Below are positions 15,958 through 59,798 of a DNA stretch of 64,000 nt, piece by piece; position 1 is the first letter of the stretch, and each line of letters starts with the position of its first letter. The position numbers and the translations under genes are program-made. The stretch comes from Halopelagius longus. GTDB taxonomy: Archaea; Halobacteriota; Halobacteria; Halobacteriales; Haloferacaceae. The stretch is from positions 248,001 through 312,000 of the forward strand of contig NZ_FNKQ01000003.1 in NCBI RefSeq assembly GCF_900100875.1, written 5' to 3'. Below the pieces are notes generated by a model. It ran no database searches and had not been told where the DNA came from. It was given only the letters and a program-made list of their open reading frames with translations.

Positions 15958-16057
15958 CGAACCGAAGGAAGGTTCGGTAACTCGCTGGTCAGACGGGCAC
16001 GCCAGCGGGCACCCGTGAGAACGGGACGAAATGTGGAGGAGCGTCGAACGCCCCTCC
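15958..16057 (+). promoter_or_regulatory. Structured 5' leader of L15e with stacked hairpins
   Basis: Four hairpins in a row: CGAACC/GGTTCG (15958-15976), CGCTGG/CCAGCG (15983-16007), CCCGT-GAGA-ACGGG with a GNRA tetraloop (16012-16025), and GGAGG-A-GCGT paired with ACGC-C-CCTCC (16035-16057), ending 26 nt before the ATG. A TTAAA box at 15951-15955 predicts transcription starting near 15978, so at least the last three lie in the mRNA. This is unusual in a group where most mRNAs are leaderless. Ribosomal-protein autoregulation or an embedded small RNA are the likely explanations. Confidence 0.5.
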
Positions 16058-16083
16058 GAATCGCAAGCGCCCGTGGTGAAACT

Positions 16084-50225: not shown

Positions 50226-50708
50226 ATGGTGTCCCCGGCTGTGAAAACTGTAGTTGCGACCGCCCTGATTCTCGTCGGCGTCGCGGGAGTTGTCTGTGCC
50301 ACGATGGAACCGACAACGACGTGTATGCAAACGAAGGTTGACGGTGAAGTGGTACAGGAGGACTGTCAGACGGACGAGCAGTCGCGAAATTCGATGCTCT
50401 TGGCGATGGGGGCTGGATTGGCGGTTACGGTGCTCGGCGCCGGTGCGGTGTGGAGGTATTCCGACGGTACGAATCCGGTCGCGGACGTCGTTTCGGGGGC
50501 GGTGTTGCTGTTAGTCGGAGTTTGCGTGACGTGTCTGTTCGGAGCGTGGCTCTGGGACACCCTCACAACGCCGACGTTGCGGGAGTGGTCCTCGTGGAGC
50601 GGTTTGGTGGAGTTGCTGGCGTTCACGGCGATGGGGTTGTCCATCGCGGTACTCGGTAGTCGGGGACTCTGGCAGGTGGTCCTGGTTCGGCGGCGACGGC
50701 AAACGTAA
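50226..50708 (+). CDS. Small four-helix membrane protein
   Basis: 160 aa. Hydrophobic segments at about residues 8-26, 55-74, 86-110 and 126-150. The first loop (about 27-54) has three Cys and is probably external (TTTCMQTKVDGEVVQEDCQT). No family recognised. GC content and codon use are less extreme than in the genes before it, which may mean it belongs with the accessory segment that follows. AATTATTTG near 50190-50200 is a probable TATA box. A strong hairpin follows the stop. Confidence 0.65.
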   Translation: MVSPAVKTVVATALILVGVAGVVCATMEPTTTCMQTKVDGEVVQEDCQTDEQSRNSMLLAMGAGLAVTVLGAGAVWRYSDGTNPVADVVSGAVLLLVGVCVTCLFGAWLWDTLTTPTLREWSSWSGLVELLAFTAMGLSIAVLGSRGLWQVVLVRRRRQT

Positions 50709-50712
50709 AGAG

Positions 50713-50746
50713 GACGATAAGAGGTTCTCGACGAACCTCCGTCGTC
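50713..50746 (+). terminator. Hairpin after the small membrane protein gene
   Basis: GAGGTTC-TCGAC-GAACCTC (50721-50739) extended by an outer GACGA/TCGTC pairing (50713-50717 with 50742-50746). It starts 4 nt after the stop codon and is followed by CTCTT. It also marks the left edge of the tRNA-derived repeats. Confidence 0.5.
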
Positions 50747-50751
50747 TCTTG

Positions 50752-50853
50752 GGGCCCGACGGCTCGAACCGGGGAGCGAACGGAGGGAGCGACCGAGGTT
50801 CGAATCCGTCAGCACGTGTGCGGTTTTACTGCTCGCTTCGTTCGCAGATCCCC
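50752..50853. repeat. tRNA(CAU) 3'-end-derived repeat, left copy (att-like)
   Basis: Begins GGGCCCGACGGCTCGAACC, a diverged copy of the acceptor/T-arm end of the tRNA(CAU) gene at 53480-53554 (GGGCCCTGACGGATTCGAACC), and continues through GGTTCGAATCCGTCAG to TTTTACTGCTCGCTTCGTTC and GCAGA. The unit at 53375-53475 has the same order and length, with about 88% identity in its last ~50 bp. The two would be the ends of an inserted segment of about 2.6 kb. Confidence 0.6.
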
Positions 50854-51024
50854 CAAGGCGGGCTGGAGAGGACTTATCGCCAGTCCAACGGTGCGTTAGT
50901 AACTGGCAAAGAATTCTCCTCTTCGAGTGTGAACACACCGAGTCGGACTGACCCAAGCCAGACGAACCATCTCACCGGATTCCGCATAGTAACGCTATAG
51001 GGGTCCCCTTACGGATTGCGGATA

Positions 51025-52542
51025 ATGGGCCTAAGGGGTTGGACCTATTCCGACGTTGTTGGAAGGAGATTCGTCGTAGCCCTCGGCGGAATTTTCGTCG
51101 CGCTCGTAGTCAGCTATCCGTATCTCCCCGTCGTTACCGATGCCTCGTCTAACCTCTGGATCGTACTCGGTGTTCTGGTCGGTATCCCCGGTCTCGCCCT
51201 GTTGTACGGAGGCTATCAGTTGCCCCAGTCTGACATCCGTCCCGAACTCTATCCCACCGTCGGTGAGTGGTGTCTCCGGGGTATTCTGGTCGGTCTCGCC
51301 ATCGTGATTCCTATCGTTCTTGCTAGTGACGATCCAGATATCGTCGGAAATACGCTCTTGCTCACGGCATTAGGTAGTTTCGCGGGCTTCGGCGCAGGTC
51401 GTTACGATGCGCGAGCCAAAACGCGGCGACTCGAACTCCAAGAGACGGTTGATCAACTCGAAACCTCGAACGAGCGCCTAGAACGACACCGGCAGTACAC
51501 CGACGATATTCTCGACGCAATCGACGACGTGTTCTACGTGTTAGACGAAAGTGGATCTCTCAAGCGGTGGAACCGGAGCCTCTCGAAGGTTACTGGCTAC
51601 ACGGACGAGGAGATATCCTCGATGACTGTAGCCGACTTCTTCGACGAGGACAGCGATGTTGCTACGGCTGCGGTCCGAAACGGCTTCGAGAGTGGTTCGG
51701 TGAACGTAGAGATCAGTATACGCACCAAGGACGGCGATACCGTCCCCTTCGAGTTCGTTGGGTCCACGCTCGAGGACACGTCCGGAGACCCTGTTTTGGC
51801 CGGTATCGGGCGCGACGTTACGGACCGGGTCGAACGCGAACGGCGGCTCAAAGAGTCCAACGAGCGCTTAGAGCAGTTCGCCTACGCTGCCTCCCACGAT
51901 CTCCAAGAGCCCCTCCGGATGGTCTCGAGTTACCTTCGACTCCTCGAACGTCGGTACAGCGATGACCTCGACGAAGACGCCCGAGAGTTCCTCGAGTTCG
52001 CCGTGGACGGAGCCGATCGCATGCGCGACATGATCTACGGACTACTGGCGTACTCGCGCGTCGAGACCAAGGGAGAACCGCTCGAACCGGTGGACCTCAA
52101 CGAAGTGGTCGGGGACGTGCTCGAGGATCTCGACGTACAGATAACCGAAAGTGGCCCCGACATAGAAATCGAGGAGTTGCCTCGCGTGATGGGAGACAAA
52201 GGGCAGTTGCGGCAGGTGTTTCAGAACTTGATAAGCAACGCGCTCGAGTACAGCGGGAACGACCCGCCGCAGGTGCGTATTTCCGCCGAGCGGAACAGTT
52301 CGACGTGGGAGGTGTCGGTTCGGGACGAGGGAATCGGAATCGAACCGGACGAGCAAGACCGCATCTTCGAGGTGTTCCAACGGCTCCACGCTCCCGACGA
52401 GTACGAGGGCTCGGGCATCGGCCTGGCACTGTGCGAGCGGATCGTCGAACGTCACGGCGGCGACATCTGGGTCGAATCCGAACCGGGCGAGGGATCGACG
52501 TTCTCGTTTACACTTCCGGCGGCGGACGACCGCAGCGAGTGA
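51025..52542 (+). CDS. PAS-domain membrane histidine kinase
   Basis: 505 aa. Four transmembrane helices in the first ~135 residues (FVVALGGIFVALVVSYPYL onward), a coiled coil, a PAS domain (about 160-280: ILDAIDDVFYVLDESGSLKRWN to GIGRDVTDRVER), HisKA with YAASHDLQEPLRMVSSYLRLLE near residue 290, and HATPase_c with NLISNALEYS, DEGIGI and GSGIGLALC. Codon use is less GC-biased than in the core genes around it, in line with recent gain. ATG at 51025 (26 nt after CTATAG) is preferred to a TTG three codons earlier. No partner response regulator is adjacent. Confidence 0.88.
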   Translation: MGLRGWTYSDVVGRRFVVALGGIFVALVVSYPYLPVVTDASSNLWIVLGVLVGIPGLALLYGGYQLPQSDIRPELYPTVGEWCLRGILVGLAIVIPIVLASDDPDIVGNTLLLTALGSFAGFGAGRYDARAKTRRLELQETVDQLETSNERLERHRQYTDDILDAIDDVFYVLDESGSLKRWNRSLSKVTGYTDEEISSMTVADFFDEDSDVATAAVRNGFESGSVNVEISIRTKDGDTVPFEFVGSTLEDTSGDPVLAGIGRDVTDRVERERRLKESNERLEQFAYAASHDLQEPLRMVSSYLRLLERRYSDDLDEDAREFLEFAVDGADRMRDMIYGLLAYSRVETKGEPLEPVDLNEVVGDVLEDLDVQITESGPDIEIEELPRVMGDKGQLRQVFQNLISNALEYSGNDPPQVRISAERNSSTWEVSVRDEGIGIEPDEQDRIFEVFQRLHAPDEYEGSGIGLALCERIVERHGGDIWVESEPGEGSTFSFTLPAADDRSE

Positions 52543-52763
52543 GTCCGCGAGTGGCGAGCCGGTCGACACTTTCCTCGTGGAGGATGACGAAGCGGGATAG
52601 CGTGGGTCAGTTCACACCACCCCCGGGCAGTCAGTCCCGGCGAGTGATTGCGATCGTCCCGATATCAGTCGGGAGAACCGGATCAGATGACATACATTCT
52701 CCAATTCACCAAACTCTTTAGGGCGATATATTTCGTGGGTAGAGTACATCCGTAGAAGTAGAG

Positions 52764-53111
52764 ATGGCAGTCAAACAAGACGGCATTCCGTCCGGGCGTT
52801 CAACTACCGACTCTCTCGCCGTCCTTGACGACAAGCACCGACTCACCGTGGTCGGTATCCTCGCAGCAGAAGACCGCTCAGTCACCCTCTCGGATCTCGC
52901 AGAAGGGGTTGCCGGGGAACTCCGAGGCGTCGAGCAAGGGAAGATACCCGAGCAAGATATCGAACGAGCGGAGATAACCCTCCACCACAACCACCTCCCG
53001 AAGTTGGACGATGCGGGTGTTCTCGAGTACTCTCCCGAGGACCACCGCGTCGTTCCGACCGACGACCTGAAAACGGCAGCGACGCTCACAAAAACGGTCG
53101 ATACGAACTAA
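52764..53111 (+). CDS. Haloarchaeal winged-helix protein (DUF7344-like)
   Basis: 115 aa. LAVLDDKHRLTVVGILAAEDRSVTLSDLAEGVAGEL (about residues 17-52) is the helix-turn-helix part, and ITLHHNHLPKLDDAGVLEYSPEDHRVVPT (about 73-101) the recognition helix and wing of the pattern LxHxHLPKLxDAGVxEYD. Such small regulators are abundant in haloarchaeal accessory regions. It sits in the tRNA-bounded insert with the histidine kinase. Codon use is moderate in GC. Targets unknown. Confidence 0.75.
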   Translation: MAVKQDGIPSGRSTTDSLAVLDDKHRLTVVGILAAEDRSVTLSDLAEGVAGELRGVEQGKIPEQDIERAEITLHHNHLPKLDDAGVLEYSPEDHRVVPTDDLKTAATLTKTVDTN

Positions 53112-53256
53112 CGGTCCCGCGCTCTCCCGGATTTTGTGAGGTTTTTCGAGAGGTGGTACTCGTGGCGGTAGGGATACTCAACGGTCGAAGTCGGGAATGG
53201 CCGATGCCGAACGGTGTATCTCACATCCGCTCCATAGTTCGTCCGCAGAAATCGAT

Positions 53257-53374
53257 GGGCCCTGACGGATTCGAACTTTGGCCGTTCCACTCGCTTCGCT
53301 CGTTTCACTCCCGAGTTCGATTCCGTCACGACAGAGTCGAAACACCGCTCGCTTACGCTCGCGGGTTTCTTCGT
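53257..53374. repeat. tRNA(CAU) 3'-end-derived repeat, second copy
   Basis: Starts with an exact copy of the tRNA 3' end (GGGCCCTGACGGATTCGAAC, 53257-53276) preceded by GCAGAAATCGAT, which also precedes the real tRNA at 53468-53480. It ends with an inverted partner GAGTTCGATTCCGTCA (near 53313-53328), then a CTCGCTTACGCTCGCG hairpin. Unit length 118 bp. Confidence 0.65.
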
Positions 53375-53479
53375 GGGCCCTGACGGATTCGAACCGCGAG
53401 AACTCGCGTTGCTCGTTCTCTGGATTCGAACCGTCAGAGCGTGTCGATTTTACTGCTCACTTCGTTCGCAGAAAATCGA
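53375..53479. repeat. tRNA(CAU) 3'-end-derived repeat, third copy (att-like)
   Basis: GGGCCCTGACGGATTCGAACC (53375-53395 is 21 bp, identical to the tRNA end) followed by GCGAGAACTCGCG and the inverted partner GGATTCGAACCGTCAG, then TTTTACTGCTCACTTCGTTC and GCAGAAAATCGAT up to the tRNA. It closely parallels the unit at 50752-50853. Unit length 106 bp. Confidence 0.65.
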
Positions 53480-53554
53480 TGGGCCCTGACGGATTCGAAC
53501 CATCGACCACTCGGTTATGAGCCGAGCGCTCTAACCAGGCTGAGCTAAGGGCCC
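53480..53554 (-). tRNA. tRNA with CAU anticodon (Met elongator or Ile2)
   Basis: 75-nt cloverleaf. Acceptor GGGCCCT pairs with AGGGCCC, discriminator A. D arm AGCTCAGCCTGGTTAGAGC, anticodon stem CTCGG/CCGAG around CTCATAA (anticodon CAU), T arm with GGTTCGAATCC-type loop. CCA is not encoded. The GGGCCC acceptor resembles haloarchaeal tRNA-Ile more than initiator tRNA, so tRNA-Ile2 (CAU modified to agmatidine) is as likely as elongator tRNA-Met. Its 3' end is the source of the repeats at 50752, 53257 and 53375. Confidence 0.9.
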
Positions 53555-56246: not shown

Positions 56247-56678
56247 CTACTCGAAGAGGGCGAAGTACGTCTCGATGTCTTCGGCCTGTATCGTCCGCCG
56301 GTCGGCGTGGCGCGCGAGCTTCGCGGCGGCGCTCGCGACGTTGTCGGCGTAGTCCTCCAAGATGTCGGCGAGTGCGATGCGCGCACCCATCGACACACGA
56401 TACCGGTCGTCGATGTCGAGTCGGGCGATGCGGTCCACGGGGGCGATGGGCAGTTCCAGCTCCTCCCGTTCGACTACCTGTTCGACGCCGAAGTCCTCGG
56501 CCATCAGGGTCTTTCGGCCGTCCTCCTCGGCGCGTTCGGCCGCGTCGGCCGCGAGGTCTGAGCCGCGGCGCTGGATGCGCCGGGCGAGTTCCTCGGACGC
56601 GTCGGCGCTGACCCGGAGCTCGCCGGCGTTGCGCCGGATAATCGTATCGACCGGGGCGAACGGTAACTCGACGCTCAT
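56247..56678 (-). CDS. hstA: Archaeal histone doublet
   Basis: 143 aa made of two fused histone folds: residues 1-68 (MSVELPFAPVDTIIRRNAGELRVSADASEELARR) and 76-143 (LPIAPVDRIARLDIDDRYRVSMGARIALADILED, ending RTIQAEDIETYFALFE). Each has the three-helix pattern, so one chain equals a histone dimer. Such doublets are typical of haloarchaea. The protein is unusually acidic for a DNA binder, which fits high internal salt and the finding in Halobacterium-type species that the histone may act as a specific regulator rather than packaging DNA. First gene of a unit with the deacetylase. Confidence 0.94.
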   Translation of the reverse strand: MSVELPFAPVDTIIRRNAGELRVSADASEELARRIQRRGSDLAADAAERAEEDGRKTLMAEDFGVEQVVEREELELPIAPVDRIARLDIDDRYRVSMGARIALADILEDYADNVASAAAKLARHADRRTIQAEDIETYFALFE

Positions 56679-56828: not shown

Positions 56829-58295
56829 TCAGCGGTTCTCCAAGGCGACTTCGGTCGCCTCGATGCGCCCGTCGCGAACCGCGCCGCGAACCGTGACCTC
56901 TTGGCCGAGTTTGAGCGACTCGTTCGTCTCCACGCTCCGCGTCTCGGTGCCGTCGTCGAGGACGACGGGGTCGCCGGCCTGAACGACGGTTCCGGTGAAC
57001 TCCTCTATCTCGCCGTCGTCGGCGTTCGACTCCGAGGAACCGCCGGACGACGAAGCGCCGTTCGCCGCGGACGAGTCGGACGACCCCTCGGCGTCGCCCG
57101 CGTCCTCGAACGCGCCGAGTCCCTGCGATTGTGACTCCGCCTGCGCCTCGTCTGCACCGCCCGCGGCGTTCCCGGCGTTCGCGCCGTCGGGAGCCTCGTC
57201 CATCACGCTGATAGTGGACCGCCACCCGGCGGAGGCTTCGAGGTCCTCCTGCCAGCCGTCCTTTATCTCGACGTCCGTGAGGACGACGTAGTCCGCGAGG
57301 TCCACGTCGGTGTCGGCCTTCTCGCCCCACATGGCGACGCGGATGTCGCCGGTGTCGTCCTTGACGCGGATGTTCCGGACCTGCCCCTCGGACCCGTCGT
57401 CTCGGTCGAACGTGCGCTTGGGGTCCGTCTCGATGACGCCGCCCGCGATATCGACCGTCTCGCCGAGTTCCAACTCAGCGATGTCGGTCGTCTCGGGGAC
57501 GTACTCGATATCTTCGTCGAGTTCCTCCACCGCGCCGCGGTTGCCGACGTGGAGTTCGAGCGACCCGTCGCGTTCGCGGACGTACCCGTCGACGACTTCG
57601 ACGGTGTCGTCCGGTTCGTACTCGTCCGCGAGGTCGGCCTTCTCGTCCCAGAGGGTGACGCGGATGCGGCCGGTGGGGTCGCCGAGCGTCAGGTTGGCGA
57701 CGCGACCCTCGGACCCGTCGTCGCGGTCGAACGTCCGCACCGAGTCGGTGCTGAGGACGCGGCCCTTCAGGTTCACGTCCGAGAGGCCGAGCGAGAGGTC
57801 CTCGACGCGGTAGGAGTCCTGCATCTGGACGTCCACCTCGGCGTCCGGGTCGGGTTCGACCTTGTCGACGCTGACCTCGACGCCGTTGTACCCCTCCTTG
57901 GGTCGCCCCGCGATGCGGAGCACGTCCCCCGCTTCGAGGCTTTCGAGGGCGTCCACGGCGACGTTGTCCCAAAGCGAGATGCGGATGCGTCCCGTCTCGT
58001 CTGCGACTTCGACGTTGAGGACGCGGCCGTCCTCGTCCTCGCCGTCGCGTTCGAAGGTCCGGAGTTCGCCGATGCTCATCACCTTCGCGAGGAACTTCAC
58101 GTCCTCCATGCCGGGTTCGATGTCGGCGACACCCTCGACCTCCTCGTCGCGGAGTTCGTGCGCGATGAGCATCGCCGCCGTCTCCTCGTCGGCGAGTCCG
58201 CCCATCTGTTCGACCTTGTCTTCCACGGCGGCCTCGAACTTCTCGAACGACACGTCGGTTTCGAGGTCCTCGTAGACGTCTTCGATCGCACCCAT
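56829..58295 (-). CDS. rpa2: Single-stranded DNA-binding protein RPA2 (multi-OB-fold)
   Basis: 488 aa. A helical N-terminus (MGAIEDVYEDLETDVSFEKFEAAVED) precedes three OB folds, each with the signature (I/V)RxxLWDxxA: RIRISLWDNVAV near 105, RIRVTLWDEKADL near 212, DIRVAMWGEKADTD near 315. A Ser/Ala/Gly/Gln linker (about 365-425) leads to a short fourth OB-like end (FTGTVVQAGDPVVLDDG). It coats ssDNA in replication and repair. In Haloferax the homologous gene is essential and also neighbours the histone gene. It is on the same strand as the histone but 150 bp away, with its own promoter likely. Confidence 0.94.
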   Translation of the reverse strand: MGAIEDVYEDLETDVSFEKFEAAVEDKVEQMGGLADEETAAMLIAHELRDEEVEGVADIEPGMEDVKFLAKVMSIGELRTFERDGEDEDGRVLNVEVADETGRIRISLWDNVAVDALESLEAGDVLRIAGRPKEGYNGVEVSVDKVEPDPDAEVDVQMQDSYRVEDLSLGLSDVNLKGRVLSTDSVRTFDRDDGSEGRVANLTLGDPTGRIRVTLWDEKADLADEYEPDDTVEVVDGYVRERDGSLELHVGNRGAVEELDEDIEYVPETTDIAELELGETVDIAGGVIETDPKRTFDRDDGSEGQVRNIRVKDDTGDIRVAMWGEKADTDVDLADYVVLTDVEIKDGWQEDLEASAGWRSTISVMDEAPDGANAGNAAGGADEAQAESQSQGLGAFEDAGDAEGSSDSSAANGASSSGGSSESNADDGEIEEFTGTVVQAGDPVVLDDGTETRSVETNESLKLGQEVTVRGAVRDGRIEATEVALENR

Positions 58296-59203: not shown

Positions 59204-59401
59204 TGAGTCCTGATAGGGTAGTGGACTATCCTCTTGGCTTGCGGAGCCAGGGACCGGAGTTCAAATCTCCGTCAGGACGTTTCTGCGAGGCGCTACGCGA
59301 CGAGCGAAGCGAGGAGCCTGCGCCTCGTGAAACTCCTCCGAGGTGATTTGAGCAGACGAGACGAGCAACGCGAGTCTCGGCGAGTTCAAATCTCCGTCAG
59401 G
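59204..59401 (+). repeat. 198-bp duplication, copy 1
   Basis: Identical to 59572-59769 except for two substitutions. It contains a complete tRNA-Arg(GCG), a ~100-bp spacer rich in CGAGCGAAGCGAGG-type sequence, and a 20-bp copy of the tRNA 3' end (59382-59401, same as 59257-59276). The copies are 368 bp apart. Confidence 0.9.
59207..59279 (+). tRNA. tRNA-Arg (GCG), copy 1
   Basis: 73-nt cloverleaf. Acceptor GTCCTGA pairs with TCAGGAC, discriminator G. D arm TAGGGTAGTGGACTATCCT, anticodon stem TTGGC/GCCAG with loop TTGCGGA (anticodon GCG), T arm CGGAG-TTCAAAT-CTCCG. CCA not encoded. Identical in sequence to the second copy. Confidence 0.92.
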
Positions 59402-59571
59402 GCGCTCATTTCACTCGCGACCCGACTTGCTCCCCGTGCGCGCTGAGCGTCGTCTACCTGTTTGCGGAGTCTGCATCAATACAGTTGAAGTAGTCTCACA
59501 GTGGCGACATCGAGGAGGCGGCCACCCGCACACATCGTAACCGTCTTAAGCAAACGAGGTGTAGCGAAGGA

Positions 59572-59769
59572 TGAGTCCTGATAGGGTAGTGGACTATCCT
59601 CTTGGCTTGCGGAGCCAGGGACCGGAGTTCAAATCTCCGTCAGGACGTTTCTGCGAGACGCTACGCGACGAGCGAAGCGAGGAGCCTGCGCCTCGTGAAA
59701 CTCCTCCGAGGTGATTTGAGCAGACGAGACGAGCAACGCGAGTTTCGGCGAGTTCAAATCTCCGTCAGG
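59572..59769 (+). repeat. 198-bp duplication, copy 2
   Basis: Second copy of the tRNA-Arg-containing unit, 196 of 198 positions the same as copy 1. Its own partial tRNA 3' end is at 59750-59769. A further 13-bp piece of the same end, CTCCGTCAGGACG, occurs at 59879-59891. Confidence 0.9.
59575..59647 (+). tRNA. tRNA-Arg (GCG), copy 2
   Basis: All 73 nt equal to the gene at 59207-59279, so both are expected to be functional. CTTAAG at 59545-59550, about 25 nt upstream, is a possible TATA-type promoter; a CATTTCAAGG sequence lies at about the same distance upstream of copy 1. Confidence 0.92.
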
Positions 59770-59798
59770 TCGCGAATGAAATGAGCGCCCTGACTTGC

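Follow-up and report, generated by a model that had tools for sequence, protein, structure and literature searches.

Introduction

Islands integrated at tRNA genes, with partial duplications of the tRNA, have been described for Haloquadratum prophages (PMC3119063) and for archaeal tyrosine recombinases (PMC8371274). In Methanopyrus kandleri, about half of the tRNA genes are followed, at a distance of about 10 bp, by the palindrome CGTTA(N)9TAACG (PMC5217627). The DNA analyzed here (the window) is a stretch of 64,000 nucleotides of Halopelagius longus (contig NZ_FNKQ01000003.1, positions 248,001 to 312,000). In a preliminary description, repeats of the 3' end of a tRNA(CAU) gene were taken for the attachment-site ends of an insert, either a cargo element or an island that had lost its recombinase. 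The repeats are part of hairpin units, about 100-140 bp long, that are resident downstream of tRNA genes, and only there, throughout the class of haloarchaea, and that apparently constitute an undescribed family of tRNA-matched repeats.

The unit array at tRNA-Met(CAU)

The array is anchored by a tRNA-Met(CAU) gene on the minus strand (53480-53554; ARAGORN; Rfam RF00005, 69.3 bits) and extends leftward from it through units A and B, the truncated start of a third hairpin 1, a DUF7344 gene, a PAS histidine kinase gene, unit C, a boundary hairpin and a 160-aa gene. Three tRNA-tail hairpin units thus stand behind tRNA-Met, and a two-gene cargo of 2.4 kb is lodged between the second and the third. 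Unit A (53374-53479, minus strand) consists of hairpin 1 (about 53444-53479), hairpin 2 and an exact copy of the last 22 nt of the tRNA (53374-53395), and it is matched by the covariance model of the family, R1, at 53374-53437 with 27 bits. Unit B (53256-53373, minus strand) has the same composition, with its exact 22-nt copy at 53256-53277 and an R1 match at 53256-53329 (40.5 bits). Sequence comparison identified the truncated start of a further hairpin 1 (TCGATTTCTGCGGACGAA; 53230-53255, minus strand), which forms the right edge of the cargo. Unit C (50752-50856, minus strand) comprises a diverged tail (50752-50773; TGGGGCCCGACGGCTCGAACC), hairpin 2 and hairpin 1. Beyond it lie the boundary hairpin GACGATAAGAGGTTCTCGACGAACCTCCGTCGTC (50709-50748, assigned to neither strand), which the sister species also carries beside its unit, and the gene for a 160-aa membrane protein (50226-50708, plus strand), whose homologue in the sister species has 66% amino acid identity.

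The recurrence of the tRNA 3' end in two exact copies and a diverged one had been located correctly, with the right identities. The exact copies match the tRNA at 22 of 24 positions over 24 nt and are beyond chance, the best match in 30 Markov-shuffled windows being 16-18 of 24. Recomputation also upheld the reported similarity of two units, with 88% identity over 50 bp between 53374-53479 and 50752-50853 (E = 6e-14). Overlooked at that stage were the apical core of unit C, which is inverted relative to the usual orientation as judged by sequence and by the strand of its R1 match (50756-50818, plus strand, 56.5 bits), and the presence of like units at many other tRNAs. These include the two tRNA-Arg(GCG) genes of the window, at 59207 and 59575, each followed by an R1-matched unit of the same family on the plus strand (59280-59404 and 59648-59772, respectively).

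Fold and covariation of the units

A unit is composed of two hairpins, the second of which contains the reverse complement of the local T-arm, a stem-loop core and a copy of the tRNA from G53 to N73, with the T-loop and the 3' strand of the acceptor. Identity between tRNA and copy forms a sharp block, -22 to -1, with G52/G53 as its first position and the discriminator base N73 as its last; on the left it falls to background, and immediately to the right it is about 0.5. Most units measure about 90-150 bp, and direct repeats bound every one of them. These features raise the possibility that the units derive from sites for tyrosine integrases of the T-loop type, as relics or as tandem copies, and represent miniature integrated elements without a recombinase, since G53-N73 is the block that a T-loop crossover must restore. 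Such an origin is unlikely; a tRNA-matched anti-T-arm is no known feature of attachment sites, and further evidence on it comes from viral contigs and from the integrase elements of the genome.

The anti-T-arm follows the tRNA behind which it stands. Across 23 aligned units, pairing is found in 92% of cells, and 36 cells of arm and tRNA have changed on both sides compared with 14.7 after shuffling; the covariation score is 0.241 compared with 0.124, and neither value was reached in any of 500 shuffles. In 39 of 42 units, the corresponding base of the arm tracks that at position 57 of the tRNA (Fisher P 8.5e-8). Pairing with the unit's own T-stem (2.90) exceeds that in all 20,000 permutations (2.30 +/- 0.11).

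In the core, two Watson-Crick pairs and tandem G-A pairs form a ladder with a C-GNA-G cap, and the core sequence GAATCAGGGA...GACCGWGGTTC is conserved across families. The 46 GNA loops comprise 28 GAA, 11 GGA, 4 GCA and 3 GTA, and GNRA/GNNA loops are also present. Identity as a K-turn was rejected for want of a 3-nt bulge. DNA minihairpins with GNA loops, d(GCGAAGC), are cited as extraordinarily stable (Hirao 1994 and Yoshizawa 1997, cited in PMC6479982); they resemble the apical loops of the units in having C-GNA-G flanked by G-A pairs, but they are a structural motif and not a genetic element. Because GNA loops form such unusually stable DNA minihairpins, single-stranded DNA is favored here as the probable folded form.

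The fold is strand specific. Tandem-GA hairpins number 107 on the tRNA-sense strand and 20 on the antisense strand, with 7.2 expected, and the sense strand gives the more stable fold in 53 of 59 units when RNA parameters are used. An explanation that has to be weighed here, although it is rather unlikely, is that the unit is a structured RNA co-transcribed with the tRNA, whose hairpins terminate transcription, pause it or time processing. The anti-T-arm would pair with the T-arm of the tRNA or with its copy, and the second tail would free the tRNA once the unit had been transcribed. The favored sense strand is consistent with such a trailer, as are the U-G pair retained in 15 of the 23 units and the placement of units at the loci checked, where they are always on the strand of the tRNA and start 29-204 bp behind it. 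For Haloferax volcanii, a study of RNA 3' ends reports that many of them are preceded by hairpins and that two lie behind tRNA-Pro (PMC7237163). Against a trailer stand the loops, which are mostly of the DNA-type C-GNA-G form, and the copying of even the discriminator base, a base that a trailer could fold without. An intrinsic terminator alone was rejected because it leaves the copying of the tail unexplained.

The T-arm is itself quasi-palindromic, so functionless hairpins could be made repeatedly by tandem slippage at the tRNA end together with template switching at the T-arm. The fast turnover and reordering of units described below would suit this neutral origin, which is nevertheless decidedly unlikely given the conservation of the core across families, the excess of tandem-GA hairpins (107 versus 7) and the restriction of the units to one class.

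Distribution among tRNA genes and across haloarchaea

The last 24 nt of each tRNA were sought in the 450 bp downstream and upstream of the gene. A copy of the gene's own tail lies downstream of 23 of the 45 tRNA genes in H. longus, 12 of 29 in the sister species, 11 of 28 in Haloferax marinum and 8 of 30 in three genomes of other haloarchaeal families, compared with a chance expectation of 0-1.6 from the tails of other tRNAs (1.6 for H. longus). None lies upstream, barring two tandem-tRNA artefacts in H. longus, and none was found downstream of 30 tRNAs in one genome from another family of the phylum. Tandem units occur, up to three among the arrays listed. Each R1 match listed for H. longus either follows a tRNA or has a tail that points to one; some have been displaced from the tRNA by integrase islands or cargo, and the tail of one fits a tRNA outside the list, perhaps an intron-containing tRNA-Trp.

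About half of the tRNAs have no adjacent unit, including all 11 tRNA-Thr genes examined, which argues against a trailer RNA. Among the other sampled haloarchaeal tRNAs, an adjacent own-tail copy was seen at 0 of 6 tRNA-Ile and 0 of 5 tRNA-Leu genes, and at 8 of 10 tRNA-Lys, 3 of 3 tRNA-Phe and 9 of 15 tRNA-Arg genes. No significant correlation between species was seen in which tRNAs bear a unit (9, 10, 1, 6; P 0.19), which suggests fast turnover. At tRNA-Leu(UAG), two unit types shared by H. longus and its sister species stand in opposite order, suggesting that units change place or are swapped inside arrays.

A scan of named genomes with the core pattern gave 27 loci, most of them 44-154 bp behind a same-strand tRNA and with its own tail, in Haloferax, Halobellus, Halogeometricum, Haloarchaeobius, Halomarina, Halorubellus, Halorarius and other genera. 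The exact pattern, found in 4 of 393 genomes of the phylum, was too strict, and R1 was used instead. R1 matches 22 of 23 sampled haloarchaeal genomes from five families, with 1-31 matches each; elsewhere in the phylum, seven genomes have one marginal match each. In 16 of the 20 top-match loci, each taken from a different genome, a tRNA lies 29-204 bp upstream and the arms match. Of the remaining four, one seems to have been moved away from tRNA-Gln, and another has a tandem array that bears its own tail. Among 2.9 million viral contigs the core turned up in 1, a match that has no tRNA; viruses were rejected as the carrier of the units, and this rarity also argues against integrase-site relics. 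Matches in a plasmid search were confined to the tRNA end of the query, none covering 80% of it.

Rfam has no gathering-level match at any unit, in the window searched at the gathering threshold or at 12 loci searched at E <= 0.5. Apart from two sub-threshold matches, these searches gave tRNA and a leader of a ribosomal protein, the Euryarchaeal eL15 leader (RF03144, window 16012-16067). A tRNA-Ala(CGC) called by ARAGORN at 56299-56394, overlapping a 143-aa ORF, lacks Rfam support and is probably false. Neither a description of the units nor their literal sequence was found in open-access papers, many journals being beyond reach.

Cargo at tRNA-Met and relation to integrase elements

The larger cargo gene (51016-52542, plus strand) encodes a 508-aa PAS sensor histidine kinase with an archaeal 4TM region (HisKA_4TM; PF02518, PF00512, PF13426, PF16926), and the smaller (52764-53111, plus strand) a 115-aa winged-helix-type protein of the DUF7344 family (PF24035, E 9e-17). 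Pfam agrees with the identities first given to both proteins, and the absence of a recombinase between units B and C was borne out by the gene content of the segment. Their codon use, reported as unlike that of core genes, is indeed so: GC3 is 0.71 and 0.66, compared with 0.87-0.90 in katG, the CCA-adding enzyme gene and a 488-aa gene (56829-58295). The DUF7344 gene has no match closer than 56% identity among 119 genomes of the family.

A relative without the insert had been proposed as a check, and in the one relative concerned, the sister species, the same tRNA-Met carries one unit and neither cargo gene, so that the pair was gained here or lost there. For the boundary hairpin, window 50713-50770 corresponds to sister locus L022, 5259-5201, with 88% identity. 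The counterparts of 50226-50712 and 50713-50770 are both conserved there, about 7.4 kb apart, with the gap falling at window position 50712|50713 and holding genes for an integrase, a NorB-like protein and a VWA protein. The homologue of the 160-aa gene sits at the far end of this integrase island. tRNA-Met is an island site.

That the window holds a decayed island of the sister's type, which lost its integrase and later gained the kinase and DUF7344 genes, is a possibility of some weight, though short of an even chance. The boundary hairpin and the 160-aa gene are common to both, and the three sister genes lie exactly between them, but gain and loss cannot be polarized from two genomes, and no counterpart of the far attachment-site copy of the sister island (L022:13366) turned up in the window. 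Judging from these comparisons, the kinase and DUF7344 genes are best regarded as species-variable cargo at an island site, and the flanking repeats as resident units. Of the original reading as a cargo element or a lost-recombinase island, the variable segment and the island site stand. The repeats as attachment-site ends do not, because the same units occur at 23 of 45 tRNAs, mostly with nothing between them; they are not unique to the ends of one element. Ordinary repeats spread genome-wide had been named as evidence against an element, and the repeats are largely of this kind, except that they are linked to tRNAs and not dispersed intergenically.

A search for the repeat pair around other cargo had been proposed, and a second integrase-less case with the architecture seen here is an 826-aa gene between two tRNA-Arg(UCG) units (317274-319754 in G000:C2:316400-320500, where G000 is H. 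longus). The 826-aa protein has an apparent Tat-type start. DUF7344 and/or kinase homologues are also seen beside units of tRNA-Gln and tRNA-Ser(CGA), and of tRNA-His and tRNA-Arg(CCU) in the sister species.

Three integrase-bearing elements of H. longus, at tRNA-Leu(UAG) (about 10.4 kb), tRNA-Glu(UUC) (about 11.5 kb) and tRNA-Arg(CCG) (about 28 kb), each stand between a tRNA and the unit displaced from it. The first two (L272, G000:C1:999400-1012400; L273, G000:C2:68800-80300) encode related integrases of 365-370 aa, and each ends in a long copy of the tRNA 3' end, followed by the displaced hairpin unit. That the same tRNAs host integrase islands is in keeping with an origin of the units from integrase sites, but for all three elements the tRNA itself was the point of entry and the resident unit was pushed aside, and the blocks that they have in common with the tRNA measure 60 nt or more, 57 nt and about 13 nt, compared with 21-22 nt in the units. 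Because the blocks differ, the units are neither relics of the attachment sites of these elements nor their preferred targets. A role as integrase decoys was likewise rejected, since 3 of 3 elements entered the tRNA.

Origin and significance of the units

The explanation favored here, with a somewhat better than even chance of holding as a whole, builds on the architecture, breadth, covariation, strand asymmetry, reordering and presence or absence of the units documented above. A unit would originate by insertion at the 3' end of a tRNA gene, leaving a 21-nt direct repeat. The tRNA-sense strand would fold, more probably as single-stranded DNA than only as RNA, and the DNA in question would be the non-template strand of a gene in heavy use. 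The arm may stay matched to its own tRNA through template copying inside the hairpin, and units may be expanded, deleted and reordered by exchange between the tail repeats. Repeats downstream of the tRNA would then make an island hot spot that traps cargo such as the kinase and DUF7344 pair, a step that would require no present mobility. Against this explanation, the exact end at N73 and the kept discriminator base also fit attachment-type repeats, folding of RNA explains the strand bias equally well, GNRA/GNNA loops are present too, the lack of correlation between species points to fast turnover, unit C violates the orientation rule, and the site is seen free of this cargo in a single relative.

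A repeat tailored to each tRNA gene, retained class-wide and apparently undescribed, poses the question of its role. Candidates are tRNA 3' end formation, protecting or guiding integration at tRNA genes, and simple spread, and Haloferax genetics could address the question directly. As a caution, repeats of tRNA 3' ends in haloarchaea do not by themselves prove mobile elements.

Comparison with known systems

An integron-like cassette array would have a folded single-strand site, an integrase and cassettes with one site each; the units show a strand-specific fold and two cargo cases, and no dedicated integrase was identified. Integron-like arrays, in which the folded single strand of a unit would serve as a tRNA-matched recombination site and cassettes such as the kinase and DUF7344 pair would enter between units through a host recombinase of the XerA type, are quite improbable. 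Miniature inverted-repeat elements (MITEs) would have constant terminal inverted repeats and a target duplication across copies; the unit ends vary with the tRNA, and a direct repeat of 21 nt is present. Like the tRNA islands of haloarchaea (PMC3119063, PMC8371274), the units involve copies of tRNA 3' ends downstream of genes at which islands and integrases also occur. Unlike them, the units have no recombinase, possess a fixed two-hairpin body with an anti-T-arm, stand without cargo behind about half of the tRNAs and carry a 21-22-nt block that differs from the attachment blocks of the H. longus elements checked. The PATE and SMR repeats of Haloquadratum (PMC3119063) are also short and non-coding and lack a transposase, and PATEs carry palindromes, but they are described as dispersed and mobile, whereas the R1 matches listed for H. 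longus are linked to tRNAs and the units are customized for each. The closest precedent is the Methanopyrus palindrome (PMC5217627), which like the units stands in the 3' flank of about half of the tRNA genes. It is short and confined to one species and has neither a copy of the tRNA end nor a tRNA-specific arm, whereas the units have both.
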